Below, one piece after another: positions 6,974 to 16,499 of a DNA stretch of 26,583 bases. The DNA is taken from positions 1 through 26,583 of the IMG/VR virus record IMGVR_UViG_3300046007_004675; one strand, written 5' to 3'. The notes below the pieces were generated by a model. The model was not told where the DNA came from. It saw only the letters and a list, made by a program, of their open reading frames with translations, and did no database searches. Origin of the DNA: a virus. Both the position numbers and the translations under genes were made by a program. Position 1 is the stretch's first letter. Every line of letters starts with the position of its first letter.

Positions 6974-6995
6974 TTAGTTTTATTATAAAAAATAA

Positions 6996-7003
6996 TATTT
7001 ATA
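6996..7003 (-). promoter_or_regulatory. Possible T4-type late promoter box (TATAAATA), leftward
   Basis: On the minus strand this reads TATAAATA, an exact match to the T4 late promoter consensus, ending 33 bases before the ATG at 6962. It also lies four bases before the plus-strand ATG at 7008, where it reads TATTTATA. That reversed form recurs before other starts, so its role as a promoter is uncertain. Confidence 0.4.
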
Positions 7004-7007
7004 TTAT

Positions 7008-7973
7008 ATGAACTTTAAAAAACAACTGTTTTACACCATCGTAATTTTAATACTAACCGGTTGTATTTCGTCTGAAGTTAGACCGGCGAAGCAAGTTACA
7101 ACTGCACAAGACGCTGTTGCTAAACAAGAAGCCAAAGTAGATAATACGATGGTAGAGTTGGAAAAAGTAGAAAAAGGCAAACGTGTACAAGCATCGTCTT
7201 TGTCTATAGGTATTCAACACTCTTTAAGTCAAGTAACAAACCCGTCAGTACAAGTAGATACTGCTAAATCACTCAATGAACGTGTAATTTCTATAGTTGG
7301 ATCACCACACATAGATGAAATTAAACGTATAAAAGCTACCGTTGATTTATTAAACAGTCAAGTTGCTGAGGAAAGAAAAAAGGGTGATCAATTACTATCA
7401 CAACGTGACGAAATCATAAACAAATTGCAAAAAGAAAAGTCTGCTTTGAAAGAAAAGTATGACGATGAATTATGGCAAATGACTGATAAAGCAAAAGAAA
7501 TTGCAAAAGAAGCTGATCAAAGCAAGGCTACTTTGGATGCTATGAGTGGTATGTTTGGTCTTAATGCTGTATTTTGGGGTTTAAAAAAGTTCTTTGTTAG
7601 TGCAATGACCGCAATTATCATATTTGTTGTGGTATTTGTTATATTAAGAATATTAGCAACAGTACATCCAGCAGCTGGTGCAGCATTTAGTATATTTAAT
7701 ATGATTGGTTCTGGATTACTAAGTTTGGTAAAAGCATTAACTCCACATGCATTTGAATTGGCTAACTTCGCTTCAAAAGACAAAGTTGATGAATTCAAGT
7801 CTCCACTTGTTAAAATAGTTGATGTAATTCAAGAACTAAAAGAAAAACAAAAAGAATCTCCTGATAGAGTATATCCATTGACTGAAGTATTGAAAAGATT
7901 TGATAAAGAAATGGATAGTTCCGAAAAAGAATTGATTGATGATATTCTAAAAGAACAAAAGTGGATTAAATAA
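7008..7973 (+). CDS. Phage lipoprotein with coiled coil and membrane segment
   Basis: A 321-residue protein. The start has Lys4-Lys5, a hydrophobic core and the lipobox Leu-Thr-Gly-Cys with Cys at 19, a clear type II signal peptide, so the mature protein would be lipid-anchored. Residues 100-175 are charged and helical with heptad-like leucines (ERKKGDQLLSQRDEIINKLQ), a likely coiled coil. A strong hydrophobic segment follows (about 197-218, SAMTAIIIFVVVFVILRILA), then a Gly/Ala-rich hydrophobic stretch (221-245) and a charged helical tail. It is the first gene of the rightward block and precedes the MscS-like gene. Roles in lysis, superinfection exclusion or as a membrane partner of the next two gene products are all possible; I recognise no family. 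Confidence 0.8.
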   Translation: MNFKKQLFYTIVILILTGCISSEVRPAKQVTTAQDAVAKQEAKVDNTMVELEKVEKGKRVQASSLSIGIQHSLSQVTNPSVQVDTAKSLNERVISIVGSPHIDEIKRIKATVDLLNSQVAEERKKGDQLLSQRDEIINKLQKEKSALKEKYDDELWQMTDKAKEIAKEADQSKATLDAMSGMFGLNAVFWGLKKFFVSAMTAIIIFVVVFVILRILATVHPAAGAAFSIFNMIGSGLLSLVKALTPHAFELANFASKDKVDEFKSPLVKIVDVIQELKEKQKESPDRVYPLTEVLKRFDKEMDSSEKELIDDILKEQKWIK

Positions 7974-8018
7974 ATTAATATTTATATTTATTATATAATT
8001 GTTTTGGATTGTTAACAA

Positions 8019-8426
8019 ATGTTATGTGTTAATAAACTAAAGACGATTATGGATACAAATACAGCACACGTAATATCTCAACAGGTACTAGAATCAACCG
8101 CACAAGATATGACAGGCAAATATGTCTGGATGTTCGTAGCGGGATTAGTAATTCTAATGTTTAAATCAAGCATTGAAAAACTTGCCGCGGCACTGTTTAT
8201 GTTTATTGGGTCCGATTACAAAGAAGATGATGTTGTATATATTGATGGCAAACCCGGCAGAATTGTTCGTGTGGGACTTACAAAAACTGTATTTTTCATA
8301 TATGACGTAGTAGATGGTAAGGTTGTAGGCGGAAGTAAATTAGTTATCCAAAATGAAAGACTAGCTGGTCTAAACATAGAAAAACCACTACCTCAATTGG
8401 ATTTAAGCCGTTTCAAAAAAGACTAA
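8019..8426 (+). CDS. Minimal MscS-like membrane protein (pore helix plus beta domain)
   Basis: A protein of 135 residues from ATG 8019, or 125 from the in-frame ATG at 8049; neither has a Shine-Dalgarno site. A hydrophobic segment (about 35-49) is followed by SSIEKLAAALFMFIGSDY (50-67), which resembles the TM3b pore helix of MscS (SNLAAGVLL in E. coli). Then comes KEDDVVYIDGKPGRIVRVGLT fragments (68-88) and KLVIQNERLAG (107-117), matching the MscS beta domain pattern of G-E/D-x-V-x-[IL]-x-G-x-x-G-x-V and IPN-x-x-[IL]. The two N-terminal helices and the C-terminal cage domain of full MscS (286 residues) are missing. It could form a small oligomeric channel, act as a holin-like lesion, or disturb host channels. 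The gene sits 16 bases before the ankyrin-cyclase gene. Confidence 0.7.
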   Translation: MLCVNKLKTIMDTNTAHVISQQVLESTAQDMTGKYVWMFVAGLVILMFKSSIEKLAAALFMFIGSDYKEDDVVYIDGKPGRIVRVGLTKTVFFIYDVVDGKVVGGSKLVIQNERLAGLNIEKPLPQLDLSRFKKD

Positions 8427-8441
8427 TTTACTAATTAAACT

Positions 8442-10217
8442 ATGGCTATTAACATTTTTACCCACATCAAACGTGGGTTATACGATAACGTCTACAACTG
8501 TATCGAAAAAGAAAAAGTAGATGTCAATCAAAGAGACGATGATACAGGCAATCCACCATTGGTTGTTGCTGTAGAAGAAAATCAAGTGGAAATCGTAAAA
8601 CTACTGTTAAATCACGGTGCAGATCCCAACTGTAAAGATTGGACCAGTAAAAATACAGCACTGGATGTAGCTGAACAAAAAGGTTTTAAAAATATCGCAG
8701 AAATACTACAACAAAGAGGTGCAAAATACAGTAGCGGTAGTAGTTTCCATTTAGCCGCAAAAAATGGTGATATCGTTTCTATTGAAGAAATGTTAGACAA
8801 GGGATTTGATATCAATGAAGTTGACGCTGGCAAAGGTTGGACCGCACTACATTATGCAGTAAATTACGGACAAAAACACTTGGTTGAATATCTAATTGTA
8901 AGAGGAGCTGATGTTAACAAGAAAGATTTCTTGGGTAAAAATAATCCTATTGACGTACTATCCAATACCAATAGAGGTGACATTGTTAAGTTATTGAATA
9001 AGTACGGTGCTAAATCCGCAGGAGGTGTTAGTATTCATTTCTGCGCAGAAACAGGAGATTTTGAAGGTGTACAATCGTTCTTTGATAAAGATGGTAAAAT
9101 CAATGGCAGAGATGAAAAGAATGGATGGATGCCACTACATTATGCCGTTAACGCTAACGATGTTGATATGGTGGAATTTTTGGTACATTTGGGTGCGAAT
9201 GTTAACGGTGCAGATTTCAAAGGTGAAATTGCTCCGTTGGATTTGGCATTTAAGACGGGTAATGTAGAAATGCAAACATATCTGCAATCCAAAGGTGCTC
9301 AAAGAAAAAAGAAACACGATATTGGTGGTGGTGGAAAAGATGTAAACATATACATCACAGATGAAGTTAAAAAGCAAATTGCATTGTTTGTTGAAAAACG
9401 TAATCGTGAAGAAGCTGCAATAAAGAAACACGAAGAAGAACAAGCATCAAAAGAACCAAAGAAAAAAGATGCACCAGCTAAGAAAATTAACTGGAAAGAT
9501 TTCTTGAAACTTAAAGATATTCCAGTGGTAGAAAAGAAAGAAGAAAAGAAGGTAGAAGTTGTTAAACCCGTCAAACAAGTTGTCAAGAAAGTTGAACAAG
9601 TTGATGTAGAAGTCAAATCTGGTAGATTGCAATTGGACGTAGAACAAGAAGGTTATATATTCTTTATGGATATTGTTGCTTATAGTAAGAAAACAACAGA
9701 TGAACAAAAGAAGGCTTGTAAAGATTTGGGTGCATTGGTTAAGTCTACAATGCAATACAAAACAGCTAATGCGCTTGAAAAGTTAATTATATTACCTACT
9801 GGTGACGGTATGGTATTGGGATTCTTTACTTATTTGGAAGATGCAATGAATTGTGCAGTTACTATAGCTAAAGCAGTAAAGGATAGACCGGATTTACAAA
9901 TGAGAATGGGTGTACATTGTGGACCTGTAATACCAATGGAAGATATTAATGGCAATCTCAATATCAGTGGTGATGGTATCAACTATGCTCAAAGAGTAAT
10001 GGATGCAGGTGAAAGCAATCATTTGTTGGTTAGTTCAGCAGTAATGTTAAAATATGATAGACCACCATATGTATTAGTAAATGACTTGGGGGATGTGGTT
10101 GTAAAACACGGTGTAGTTATGCATTTGTATAGTTTACACGGTAGTGATTTTGGTAACAAATCATTTCCATCTAGTAGAGTAAAGAAAGCAGAACCAACAA
10201 CAAATAAACCAGTATGA
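8442..10217 (+). CDS. Ankyrin repeat protein fused to class III nucleotide cyclase domain
   Basis: A 591-residue protein. The N-terminal half is built from three ~95-residue blocks (about 4-94, 95-191, 192-287), each of three ankyrin-type units, with typical WTALHYAVNYGQKHLVEYLI and WMPLHYAVNANDVDMVEFLV helices. Residues 290-395 are a Lys/Glu-rich linker. The C-terminal domain (about 402-567) is a class III cyclase: FFMDIVAYS with metal Asp410, LPTGDG with metal Asp455, RMGVHCGPV (488-496), and GDGINYAQRV with Asn514 and Arg518 in the transition-state positions. The two base-selecting positions appear to be Leu451 and Asn507, neither the adenylyl (Lys/Asp) nor guanylyl (Glu/Cys) pair, so the product is uncertain. 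No signal peptide is seen. The next ORF overlaps it by four bases. Confidence 0.88.
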   Translation: MAINIFTHIKRGLYDNVYNCIEKEKVDVNQRDDDTGNPPLVVAVEENQVEIVKLLLNHGADPNCKDWTSKNTALDVAEQKGFKNIAEILQQRGAKYSSGSSFHLAAKNGDIVSIEEMLDKGFDINEVDAGKGWTALHYAVNYGQKHLVEYLIVRGADVNKKDFLGKNNPIDVLSNTNRGDIVKLLNKYGAKSAGGVSIHFCAETGDFEGVQSFFDKDGKINGRDEKNGWMPLHYAVNANDVDMVEFLVHLGANVNGADFKGEIAPLDLAFKTGNVEMQTYLQSKGAQRKKKHDIGGGGKDVNIYITDEVKKQIALFVEKRNREEAAIKKHEEEQASKEPKKKDAPAKKINWKDFLKLKDIPVVEKKEEKKVEVVKPVKQVVKKVEQVDVEVKSGRLQLDVEQEGYIFFMDIVAYSKKTTDEQKKACKDLGALVKSTMQYKTANALEKLIILPTGDGMVLGFFTYLEDAMNCAVTIAKAVKDRPDLQMRMGVHCGPVIPMEDINGNLNISGDGINYAQRVMDAGESNHLLVSSAVMLKYDRPPYVLVNDLGDVVVKHGVVMHLYSLHGSDFGNKSFPSSRVKKAEPTTNKPV

Positions 10218-10426
10218 GAACAATGCCTTTAGTAAGACAATATCATCCAAGTATTGTTAATACAGACTTGGATGTATACAAAATAAAGGATAGAGTTATG
10301 GCAGCTCCTATAAATAATCACCCTGATCCATTTCAAGTAATAGATAGACTTGGTATCAATAAGATTAATGCTACCAAAATTAGAACTGTAGTATATAATT
10401 CCAAAGGTCTTTTTTATATAATATAA
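10214..10426 (+). CDS. Small hypothetical protein coupled to the cyclase gene
   Basis: A 70-residue ORF whose ATG overlaps the cyclase stop (ATGA), a classic coupling arrangement. ATG at 10223 is an alternative start. The product is mildly basic, has no membrane segment or cysteines, and belongs to no family I recognise. It is followed within a few bases by the -35 element of the promoter for the next gene. Confidence 0.5.
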   Translation: MRTMPLVRQYHPSIVNTDLDVYKIKDRVMAAPINNHPDPFQVIDRLGINKINATKIRTVVYNSKGLFYII

Positions 10427-10429
10427 ATC

Positions 10430-10457
10430 TTGACAGTTAGAGTTATATGGTTATACT
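10430..10457 (+). promoter_or_regulatory. Sigma70-type promoter for Mom-like gene
   Basis: An exact TTGACA (10430-10435), a 16-base spacer and TATACT (10452-10457). The ATG at 10464 begins six bases after the -10 element, so transcription would be expected to start at or next to the ATG, giving a leaderless or nearly leaderless mRNA. The same elements with a 17-base spacer precede the GIY-YIG gene. Confidence 0.72.
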
Positions 10458-10463
10458 GAAATA

Positions 10464-11237
10464 ATGTCGGAGTATTTTGACCCCACATTAATTTACATCA
10501 AAAGCATCAATAAGAATGTTGCAAAAACTCTTATTGAAAAGAATCATTATACACACAAGTGGTCTCTTTGTACTGTAGCTTATGGAGTATACTATAAAGA
10601 ATATGTAGAGAGTACATTCTTTGGTGGTTTTAACGAACGATTAATAGGTGTATTAGTATATGGAAACGCCGTGGGTAGAAATGCTAGTACCAGTATCTCT
10701 TCACTACTTACTAATAACAATGTGTTAGAATTAACACGACTGTGGATTGCAGATGGTTATGGTAAAAATATAGAAAGTTATTGTATAGCTGAAAGCTTTA
10801 GATTATTAAATACTGAATATCCCCACATCAAATGTATTCTCAGTTATGCGGATAGTGAAGCTGGACACGCAGGCACAATCTATCAAGCAACTGGCTTTCT
10901 ATATCAAGGCGATAACTATGTAGATATCGCTATAATGCCTAACTATAGTGTTAGTTTAGTTGGTCCTCCTAACTATGATTGGATACACAGCAGAAGTGTA
11001 TATTCAAGATGGAAAACACACAGCGTAGATAAACTAAAAGAACGTATTGGTAGAACATTCTGGCGCAAACGAGAAAGTGGTAAACATCGTTATATCAAGT
11101 TTATCAGTAACAAAATAGAAAATAAAAAGTTGACTAAATCTCTTAAACATAAAGTTCTACCTTACCCCAAAGATACTTCGTTCAAAGAAGAAGTACAAGA
11201 AATCGTTGTAACATCTACCAACGAATTTTTCGAATAA
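10464..11237 (+). CDS. Mom-like GNAT-fold DNA modification protein
   Basis: A 257-residue protein resembling the phage Mu Mom family, which uses an acetyltransferase-like fold to modify adenines in phage DNA (carbamoylmethyl-type modification) and so block host restriction. Visible features are ARG-free HYTHKW (28-33), LIGVLVYGNA (60-69), ELTRLWIADG (89-98) followed by KNIESYCIAESFRLL, and SYADSEAGHAGTIYQATGF (127-145), the arrangement seen in Mom and its relatives. The C-terminal 75 residues are basic (KRESGKHRYIKF), fitting DNA contact. It has its own sigma70-type promoter unlike the surrounding late-type genes, suggesting earlier expression by host polymerase. Substrate and modification are inferred from the family. 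Confidence 0.75.
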   Translation: MSEYFDPTLIYIKSINKNVAKTLIEKNHYTHKWSLCTVAYGVYYKEYVESTFFGGFNERLIGVLVYGNAVGRNASTSISSLLTNNNVLELTRLWIADGYGKNIESYCIAESFRLLNTEYPHIKCILSYADSEAGHAGTIYQATGFLYQGDNYVDIAIMPNYSVSLVGPPNYDWIHSRSVYSRWKTHSVDKLKERIGRTFWRKRESGKHRYIKFISNKIENKKLTKSLKHKVLPYPKDTSFKEEVQEIVVTSTNEFFE

Positions 11238-11241
11238 AAAT

Positions 11242-11490
11242 ATGAAAGACTATATTACATTAAAGGATGTAAAATCCAGATACAAAGAAGATTTATTATT
11301 CGTAAAAACAAACCCGAAACTGTTTATTATTAATTTATTTACGCAAAATAAACAATTTAGACATTGGGAATATATGTGGATCAAAGTAATAATTGGACTT
11401 ATAAGATTATACTTTGTAAGTTTTATATGTAGATGTAAATTTTGGATTGTTTGTATTTTAAGTGGACATTTTCCTTGGGAAATAAAATAA
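11242..11490 (+). CDS. Small hypothetical membrane protein
   Basis: An 82-residue ORF four bases after the Mom-like gene and likely in the same transcript. The second half (about 46-72) is hydrophobic with aromatic residues and two cysteines (KVIIGLIRLYFVSFICRC, then WIVCIL), probably one or two membrane passes. It ends two bases from the stop of the converging GIY-YIG gene. No family is recognised. A true gene is likely but not certain. Confidence 0.5.
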   Translation: MKDYITLKDVKSRYKEDLLFVKTNPKLFIINLFTQNKQFRHWEYMWIKVIIGLIRLYFVSFICRCKFWIVCILSGHFPWEIK

Positions 11491-11492
11491 AA

Positions 11493-12236
11493 CTAATATT
11501 TTCTTTTATGTAATTTGATCGTGGTTAATGATACTCCATACTTCTCACTTAATGCATTGTTAGTAAAACTACCACTCTTTAAATCATCAACAAATTCATT
11601 CTTTCTAAGCGCAAAATTTCTCTTTTGTTCACTAATCTTACGTTTCATTTCATCACTCATAGCACCACGCTTTTTGCCTTTTAATCCATTATCATAACTG
11701 TAATTAATATTACGATTAGCCAATTTGTCATTTCTCTCCTTGTACTTAAGTGTACCACTGTCAATACCATACTTGTCAACAAACCACTCCAAAGTATAAC
11801 GTCCTACAGCACGATCACGTTGCCTTTCTTTAGCCTCATCACTATGCTTTTTACCGTGCATAGGATTTTTAGCTCCTAGATTAATATCAGATAGTAACTG
11901 ACGAGTTTCTTCTTTATCAGGATTATGTGTAAAATTATCGCCTCCACTTGCGGTTGGGGTAATATTATAACCTATATCACGCATATAGGGTTTAAACATA
12001 TCTAAATAAAATTGTTCTCGTTTAAACAATTCACATTCTATTACATTTTCTAATATAATAAATTCAAAACTGTTTTCCCCGTAAAAATCCCAAGCGTGTT
12101 GTAATTTAGGATTCTTATGTTTATTCTTTTTTAAATCATTTTTATGTTCCCACCAACGACGATCAATATCTTTAGCAGAACCAATATAAAACTTGCCATT
12201 CTTAACATTTGTAATTTTGTATATACCACTTTTCAT
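11493..12236 (-). CDS. GIY-YIG homing endonuclease with NUMOD-type motifs
   Basis: A 247-residue protein. GIY (4-6) and YIG (17-19) are followed by DRRWWEH with the catalytic Arg near 26-27, and KREQFYLD with the catalytic Glu at 74. Two motifs of the DNA-binding NUMOD3 type follow: GAKNPMHGKKHSDEAKERQ (121-139) and LKGKKRGAMSDEMKRKISEQ (185-204). The C-terminal NNALSEKYGVSLTTIKLHK looks like a helix-turn-helix. It is a free-standing mobile gene of the kind scattered in T4-like genomes (T4 seg genes). It lies between the gp23 terminator and the rightward block and has its own promoter. Confidence 0.9.
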   Translation of the reverse strand: MKSGIYKITNVKNGKFYIGSAKDIDRRWWEHKNDLKKNKHKNPKLQHAWDFYGENSFEFIILENVIECELFKREQFYLDMFKPYMRDIGYNITPTASGGDNFTHNPDKEETRQLLSDINLGAKNPMHGKKHSDEAKERQRDRAVGRYTLEWFVDKYGIDSGTLKYKERNDKLANRNINYSYDNGLKGKKRGAMSDEMKRKISEQKRNFALRKNEFVDDLKSGSFTNNALSEKYGVSLTTIKLHKRKY

Positions 12237-15457: not shown

Positions 15458-16051
15458 ATGCCTGCAAAAAGCGAAAAACAAGCCAGACTATTTAGATTGG
15501 TAAGAGCACTACAAAAAGGTGGAATCAAATCAAAAGAAGTTTCACCACAAGTTCGTAAGATGGCACGTACCATCAAACCAAGTAGTGTAAAACACTTTGT
15601 TAAATTGAAAGAAATATTGAAAAGTCTTAATGAAGCAGAATATTCATTAAGTGATTTTGATATCATTAAAGGCAAATCATTTAACCAAGTGCTAAAAGAA
15701 AATGAAGGTATTGCGTTTACTAAAAAAGAAATGTTAACTTTTCAAAGTAAACAAGCGGGATTTAGTGGATTTGGAAAAACAAATTTTATTCCTAACCCAC
15801 CAGAAAATACAAAAATAGAAACTGAAATATTTAGTAATGGTAGTACCAAGAAATATGTGTTTAAAAAGCTCATAGATCAAAAAAATGAAAATTTAATTGT
15901 ATATGCTTGTTTTATTCAAAGATCTTATCCTGATAAACCAGACAAAGAAATATTCAGTATGTTAAGTACTGCTTTGGATAAGAATAAAGATTCTGAACAA
16001 ACAAAAACCCTATCTGACTTTATAGATAGAATTAACTCTTATGGCCTATAA
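15458..16051 (+). CDS. DUF3008-like N-terminal domain protein on the opposite strand
   Basis: A 197-residue protein. MPAKSEKQARLFRLVRAL followed by KEVSPQVRKMAR and SVKHFVK resembles the short DUF3008-type domain (from memory) seen in many phage and bacterial proteins of unknown role. After it, LKEILKSLNEAEYS (51-64) includes LNE before Ala, a possible gp21 site, so the protein may be virion-associated. The remaining 130 residues are mixed alpha/beta and charged and resemble nothing I know. The start follows TATTTATT by five bases. It runs against the structural operon and overlaps the next plus-strand gene by 11 bases. Confidence 0.68.
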   Translation: MPAKSEKQARLFRLVRALQKGGIKSKEVSPQVRKMARTIKPSSVKHFVKLKEILKSLNEAEYSLSDFDIIKGKSFNQVLKENEGIAFTKKEMLTFQSKQAGFSGFGKTNFIPNPPENTKIETEIFSNGSTKKYVFKKLIDQKNENLIVYACFIQRSYPDKPDKEIFSMLSTALDKNKDSEQTKTLSDFIDRINSYGL

Positions 16052-16499
16052 TTTCAATCCAAATCTAGCTAAACATATGAATTCCACAAAAGACAATTAT
16101 AAGTTTATAAAAAGAACTGGGGACGAAACTCCATATTCCAACCCAGATGTGCGTTCTATGAATAATAGCTACAACAATTATAAGTCTCCAAAATTAATTA
16201 ACTTTATAAACAATGATAATTTTGAAGAAGAAAAAATGTTTAAGTTAGAAGATATAGATAATCCAAACGGATGGGATTTTACGGAAATTGATATATTGGG
16301 TGAAATGAATTTTCGTATAGATGATGAATACAGAATGTTTTCTGAAATAGAAGTTCCATCTTTAGATATGGTCAACGAGAAAAGAAAAACCTTCGTCTAT
16401 AAAACAGACGAAGGTTATGTGATAGAAGCAAATAGAAGATACGTTTTTGAATCGTTCGATAAAATGTTGGAATTTATTGATTCGATACCGATGAGTTAA
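16041..16499 (+). CDS. Hypothetical protein on the opposite strand
   Basis: A 152-residue ORF overlapping the previous plus-strand gene by 11 bases and the converging minus-strand gene by 26. The N-terminal third is Asn/Tyr/Lys-rich and probably disordered; the acidic middle (NNDNFEEEKMFKLEDIDN) leads to a likely small beta/alpha domain (TFVYKTDEGYVIEANRRYVF, then FDKMLEFIDSI). No family is recognised. A strong inverted repeat at 16388-16416 lies within its coding sequence and looks like a terminator for the opposite strand. Confidence 0.6.
   Translation: MAYNFNPNLAKHMNSTKDNYKFIKRTGDETPYSNPDVRSMNNSYNNYKSPKLINFINNDNFEEEKMFKLEDIDNPNGWDFTEIDILGEMNFRIDDEYRMFSEIEVPSLDMVNEKRKTFVYKTDEGYVIEANRRYVFESFDKMLEFIDSIPMS
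16388..16416 (-). terminator. Intrinsic terminator for leftward unit, inside antisense gene
   Basis: Perfect 11-base arms AACCTTCGTCT/AGACGAAGGTT around a 7-base loop. In the leftward direction the hairpin is followed by a T-rich run (TTTTTCTTTTC). It lies 57 bases after the stop of the minus-strand gene at 16474-16905, the expected place for a terminator of the gp20-gp21 unit. Confidence 0.8.

Follow-up and report, generated by a model that had tools for sequence, protein, structure and literature searches.

Genes of the rightward run

The viral contig IMGVR_UViG_3300046007_004675 (IMG/VR; 26,583 bp, analyzed over its whole length and called the window below) carries a cassette of four genes encoding a lipobox coiled-coil membrane protein (P1), a minimal MscS-like membrane protein (P2), a fusion of ankyrin repeats with a class III nucleotidyl cyclase (P3), and a small protein (P4). 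The window derives from a T4-like myovirus whose genes for the gp23 capsid protein, protease, gp20 portal, gp17 terminase, and sheath are all leftward, and judged by its capsid and terminase, the cultured phages nearest to it are Microcystis phage Mel-JY01 and Flavobacterium phage immuto (~50% identity). A compact rightward run from 7008 to 11490 breaks this late gene order; it starts with the cassette and extends past 10426 into a Mom-like gene and then o82 (Table 1). An earlier reading of this DNA, made from the sequence alone, had described the four open reading frames (ORFs), with the coupling of the 70-residue ORF to P3, and had placed them opposite to the late operon. Its coordinates and protein descriptions proved right, and the T4-like late genes do lie on the minus strand.

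P2 is an MscS protein reduced to the pore helix (transmembrane helix 3, TM3) and the beta domain, an identification based on structure prediction, family profile matches, and matches in the PDB. On its own, P2 fell short of the cut-off for PF00924 (E value of 0.013; 16.3 bits against 20.2 bits), while 12 of the 14 members of its family matched, with a best E value of 2.7e-7. The AlphaFold2 model combines a kinked helix with a beta barrel (pLDDT, the predicted local distance difference test score, of 65). In a Foldseek search with this model, the first 24 PDB fold matches all belonged to the MscS family, which bears out the MscS fold proposed in the sequence-only reading. A wide family profile searched against the PDB matched only MscS (best E value of 0.007), and a narrow profile gave no match there. 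TM1-TM2 and the C-terminal cage of MscS are absent, the protein being 125 to 135 residues long with a single membrane helix. The chain stops ~20 residues past the beta domain and contains no cyclic nucleotide-binding domain (CNBD), with no Pfam CNBD match. The conserved ATG at 8049 is probably the true start. A one-helix MscS protein would be a natural test of the minimum required for an MscS-type pore.

P3 was matched by Pfam models for ankyrin repeats (2.6e-38) and for the cyclase domain (PF00211; 23.2 bits against a cut-off of 21.9). The two metal-binding Asp residues, the transition-state Asn, and the Arg are invariant across 14 freshwater sequences, 39 marine sequences, and a homolog from Verrucomicrobiales. 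Pairwise ratios of nonsynonymous to synonymous substitution rates (dN/dS) were mostly below 0.1; in pairs with unsaturated dS they were ~0.03 to 0.07 for the cyclase domain and ~0.02 to 0.05 for the ankyrin part. These ratios point to purifying selection on the cyclase, and the domain is intact by sequence, as first supposed. A dead pseudo-enzyme was rejected on both grounds, the invariant catalytic residues and the low dN/dS. The positions that usually specify adenine, a Lys and an Asp or Thr, hold Leu or Pro and Asn in P3, so that its product is not predictable. Both positions are retained in AC482, an alternative cyclase of some relatives that is described below.

P1 resembles the unimolecular spanins. 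In these proteins, such as T1 gp11, a single chain bears both a lipobox and a membrane helix toward the C terminus, and P1 has this same layout, with its helix at residues ~195 to 213. P1 differs from them in its long coiled coil and in the ~100 residues of conserved tail beyond the helix, and there is no sequence match between them. The lipobox Cys19 is invariant across 22 homologs, and the structure model is all-alpha, with a very long helix and one clear membrane helix. P1 matched no Pfam or PHROG family, and no homologs were found in bacterial genomes. In one relative (L181), P1 adjoins holin-like, XhlA-like, and lysozyme-like genes. At L053:7060-8008 and L181:9963-10895, the neighbors of P1 are a protein that resembles a two-helix periplasmic sensor and a small holin-like protein.

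Table 1. Coordinates in the window of the rightward run and its start signal
Feature	Position	Strand	Description
Start signal ATATTTAT	6995..7002	+	About -12/13 nt upstream of P1; element and spacing match late genes of the window and of a 132-kb relative
P1	7008..7973	+	LTGC lipobox, long periplasmic coiled coil, membrane helix at ~195-213, conserved C-terminal tail; spanin-like layout
P2	8019..8426	+	Mini-MscS protein: one pore-helix-like membrane helix plus beta domain; likely start 8049
P3	8442..10217	+	Ankyrin repeats (1-290), charged linker (291-395), predicted class III nucleotidyl cyclase domain (396-575)
P4	10214..10426	+	70 residues; ATGA overlap with P3; conserved C terminus KI..VVYNSKGLFY; no family
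Mom-like DNA modification protein	10464..11237	+	PF25680 (1.2e-44), phrog_1384; follows P4
o82	11242..11490	+	Small protein, function unassigned; final gene of the run

Conservation of P2 and P3 in freshwater and marine phages

P3 was found on 67 contigs, many of them near-identical, which hold 15 distinct P3 sequences at <97% identity. The order P1-P2-P3 occurs in 60 of these contigs and is conserved beyond chance. Five others are broken off inside P3, and in the remaining two P2-P3 is not preceded by P1, which one of them encodes elsewhere (L045/L188). P2 therefore lies directly upstream of P3 in every contig that includes upstream sequence (62/62). The sequence-only reading had treated the three genes as a trio. 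The genes do occur together in relatives, but the conserved unit is the P2-P3 pair, because ten contigs of 33 to 230 kb with P1 but without P2 also have no PF00211 cyclase and because marine phages pair P2 with an ankyrin-cyclase. Co-absence extends to P4 in one contig (L178), which is missing P2-P3-P4 as a block. No homologs of P1, P2, or the cyclase domain, nor the marine homologs, were found in 50,697 cultured-phage records.

The type of cyclase can change while the P2 pore stays. In two contigs (L090 and L114), P3 is swapped for a protein of outer-membrane type, a receptor-type adenylate cyclase, and an HD protein, with P2 kept, and in others (L035, L040-L044, and L062) both cyclase modules are present. 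The receptor-type enzyme of the alternative module, AC482, is canonical, with PDB matches to 3.7e-31, and carries a sensor between two membrane helices, followed by the cyclase domain. The HD protein belongs to the Npun_R2479 family (7e-15). The module lies at L090:8424-11297 (+), where it includes a beta-barrel-like secreted protein, and also occurs in L114, L035, L040, and L044. On eight long contigs, a search for AC482 at other locations found none, and its spread in viral contigs, seen by a scan with poor patterns, is a lower bound.

Distant P2 genes (61 to 68% identical) occur in marine T4-like contigs, where they are divergent from an adjoining holin gene (PF23987, 9e-13) and a gene for an endolysin with LysM and PF00959 domains (L125-L137). 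Two longer marine P2 contigs (L274, 200.8 kb, and L272, 53.9 kb) encode elsewhere an ankyrin-cyclase that is 33% identical to P3 across 517 aligned positions. A search with this marine ankyrin-cyclase retrieved 41 loci, and in 22 of them a mini-MscS gene lies no more than 8 kb away. Their arrangements vary, and in one (L374) the mini-MscS gene lies directly upstream on the same strand, as in the window. The narrow P2 profile matched in 7 of 15 long marine ankyrin-cyclase contigs, so the link between the two genes in the marine group is strong yet not absolute. Three marine loci have divergent pairs of two different mini-MscS genes (L355:5878-6700, L368:5588-6407, and L373:4839-5659).

A full-length P3 homolog was also found on a Verrucomicrobiales chromosomal contig of 65% GC (L211:4876-6660, +), adjoining kdsB and ligA, with 70% identity and 87% positives. 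At the threshold used, such a homolog was present in only 1 of 286 genomes of the class and 1 of 50 genomes of the family. P3 as a general gene of Verrucomicrobia was rejected in favor of patchy transfer: given the rarity of the homolog, the gene passes between these bacteria and phages. The P3 tree is unrooted and gives no direction of transfer. Two prepilin-type proteins are encoded near a marine phage ankyrin-cyclase (L348:9417-11386, -), a further hint at hosts of this kind. The pointers to the host diverge, since the nearest cultured phages infect Flavobacterium and Microcystis.

Start signal and possible functions of the module

P1 is preceded by the motif TATTTAT, an element that also precedes many structural genes. 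It occurs at about -12 ahead of many genes in the window and in contig G521, at ~25-fold over expectation; in a 132-kb relative, 27 copies were observed in the 30 nt preceding ORF starts, where 1.06 would be expected. No Shine-Dalgarno sequence was seen in the upstream sequences listed for these genes. The element may be a phage late promoter or an initiation signal of unknown kind, and its presence before P1 suggests that the cassette is expressed with the late genes.

We tentatively propose that the pair forms a phage envelope-signaling module in which an active cyclase is coupled to a minimal pore and expressed late, most likely for lysis timing; this is a possible explanation, put at somewhat below an even chance. 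P3 would be an active class III cyclase tethered or gated by its ankyrin repeats, and P2 would form a minimal oligomeric pore of the MscS type in the inner membrane. Through cooperation between the two proteins, the state of the pore would be coupled to the cyclic nucleotide or to P3 itself, and the module would set the timing or occurrence of inner-membrane permeability. P1 would span the envelope in the manner of a spanin, as an optional partner. The link to lysis is drawn from the holin and endolysin neighbors of marine P2, the spanin-like layout of P1, its lysis-like neighbors in L181, which are weak matches, and the start signal. A more specific form of the proposal, in which phages from lakes to the ocean use a second-messenger circuit with a non-standard cyclic nucleotide from the ankyrin-cyclase coupled to their own one-helix MscS pore to time membrane permeabilization, is doubtful. 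If the module works as proposed, phages would run their own cyclic-nucleotide circuit for membrane control, beyond countermeasures against that of the host. The small size, conservation, and separability of the pair would then make the timing of lysis directly testable in T4-like phages that infect uncultured aquatic bacteria.

A number of results weigh against this proposal. The P2 model is of moderate confidence, and apart from the lack of a CNBD in P2 itself, no credible CNBD-like motif was found in the 132-kb and 200-kb relatives by a crude regular-expression search. The holin and XhlA assignments beside P1 are weak matches, and the XhlA-like gene, rejected as a constant partner, is present in only 3 of the 41 marine loci. 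No PF00959 endolysin was found in the long window-like contigs, so that the cassette of this phage has no known lysis genes nearby. Among marine contigs, 8 of 9 further P2 contigs have no PF00211 match (these are fragments of 14 to 44 kb, so absence is not decisive), and 8 of the 15 long ankyrin-cyclase contigs have no P2 by the narrow profile. The TATTTAT signal is not confined strictly to structural genes.

A phage adenylate cyclase within an envelope cluster opposite tail genes is already known. T4-like phages of pelagic bacteria and methylotrophs, HTVC008M and Melnitz, carry a curli (type VIII secretion system) cluster with FecR and an adenylate cyclase opposite neighboring tail genes (PMC9599517, PMC9004378), and the envelope pore cluster, which includes the cyclase, has been proposed to regulate lysis (PMC9004378), a proposal that favors lysis timing here as well. 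The module in the window is similar in belonging to T4-like phages, in combining envelope genes with a class III cyclase opposite adjoining tail genes, and in that the pore proteins are proposed to regulate lysis. It differs in that the pore of HTVC008M and Melnitz is an outer-membrane curli pore and not a mini-MscS, and in that their cluster has no ankyrins. Their cyclase is of a CHASE2-membrane type that is ~38% like AC482 in the catalytic region and unrelated to P3 except in fold. In the literature searched, with most subscription papers outside that search, neither the P2-P3 pair nor the whole set has been described, in agreement with the novelty claimed from the sequence alone.

The bCNG channels are cyclic-nucleotide-gated members of the MscS superfamily. 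P2 has the pore helix and beta domain of MscS in common with them but lacks the CNBD as well as TM1-TM2 and the cage at the C terminus, and P2 as a bCNG channel was rejected on the lack of a C-terminal CNBD. Direct gating of P2 by a cyclic nucleotide, which the sequence-only reading had raised, is not supported, because P2 has no receptor domain and none was seen elsewhere by the crude search. It is possible that signaling runs in the reverse direction: P2 would sense membrane tension or DNA injection by a second phage, a P3 docked through its ankyrins would answer, and a host CRP-like receptor would read the nucleotide, so that lysis would be put off in the way known from T4 lysis inhibition. 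Retention of the MscS pore helix and beta domain without a nucleotide-binding domain, the failure to find a phage CNBD, and the membrane receptor architecture of AC482, which looks as if input came at the membrane, all fit such a sensor. P2 nonetheless lacks TM1-TM2, the tension-sensing paddle of MscS, and docking of P3 on P2 is conjecture; we consider the sensor explanation unlikely.

Three further explanations would direct the cyclase at rival phages, at the host, or at host defense. Superinfection exclusion, in which a second phage triggers P3 and P2 depolarizes the cell, follows the logic of Pycsar, a cyclase with a small membrane protein (PMC11224242), and the cassette is swappable among relatives. 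That parallel had been drawn from the sequence, and it holds for the general logic of a class III cyclase with a small membrane protein. It does not hold for the components: P3 was rejected as a PycC, the PADLOC PycC models giving no match up to an E value of 1, and no cyclic nucleoside monophosphate receptor effector (PycTM or CNBD-TIR) was found in P1, P2, and P4 by Pfam or in P1 and P2 by PADLOC. Unlike PycC with PycTM or PycTIR, the module in the window is phage encoded and has an ankyrin fusion and no receptor domain, with a mini-MscS in the place of PycTM. Exclusion is also usually early, whereas the cassette shares the late-gene start signal, and we regard this explanation as quite unlikely. 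Host takeover, with P3 and AC482 as auxiliary enzymes that raise cyclic AMP or a related nucleotide and reprogram the host while P2 serves as an unrelated osmotic safety valve, would fit the chromosomal Verrucomicrobiales homolog beside kdsB and ligA and the adenylate cyclases that pelagiphages carry as auxiliary genes (PMC9599517). It is improbable given that the Lys and Thr/Asp that usually specify adenine are absent from P3 and that the co-occurrence of P2 and P3 is too tight for unrelated genes. A decoy role, in which P3 would flood the cell with a nucleotide and so block a host defense based on cyclic nucleotides, has a precedent in the inhibitory and decoy cyclic nucleotides that two reports describe on the host side (PMC12657218, PMC12657230); it leaves the pairing with a membrane pore unexplained and is highly improbable.

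Other genes of the late region

The Mom-like gene behind P4 is kept in most freshwater relatives. A GIY-YIG/NUMOD3 homing endonuclease gene (window 11496-12236, -) adjoins the capsid gene, and its presence varies among close relatives. A second rightward gene pair lies within the late region of the window at 15458-16499 (+), and its first gene carries the TATTTAT start signal.

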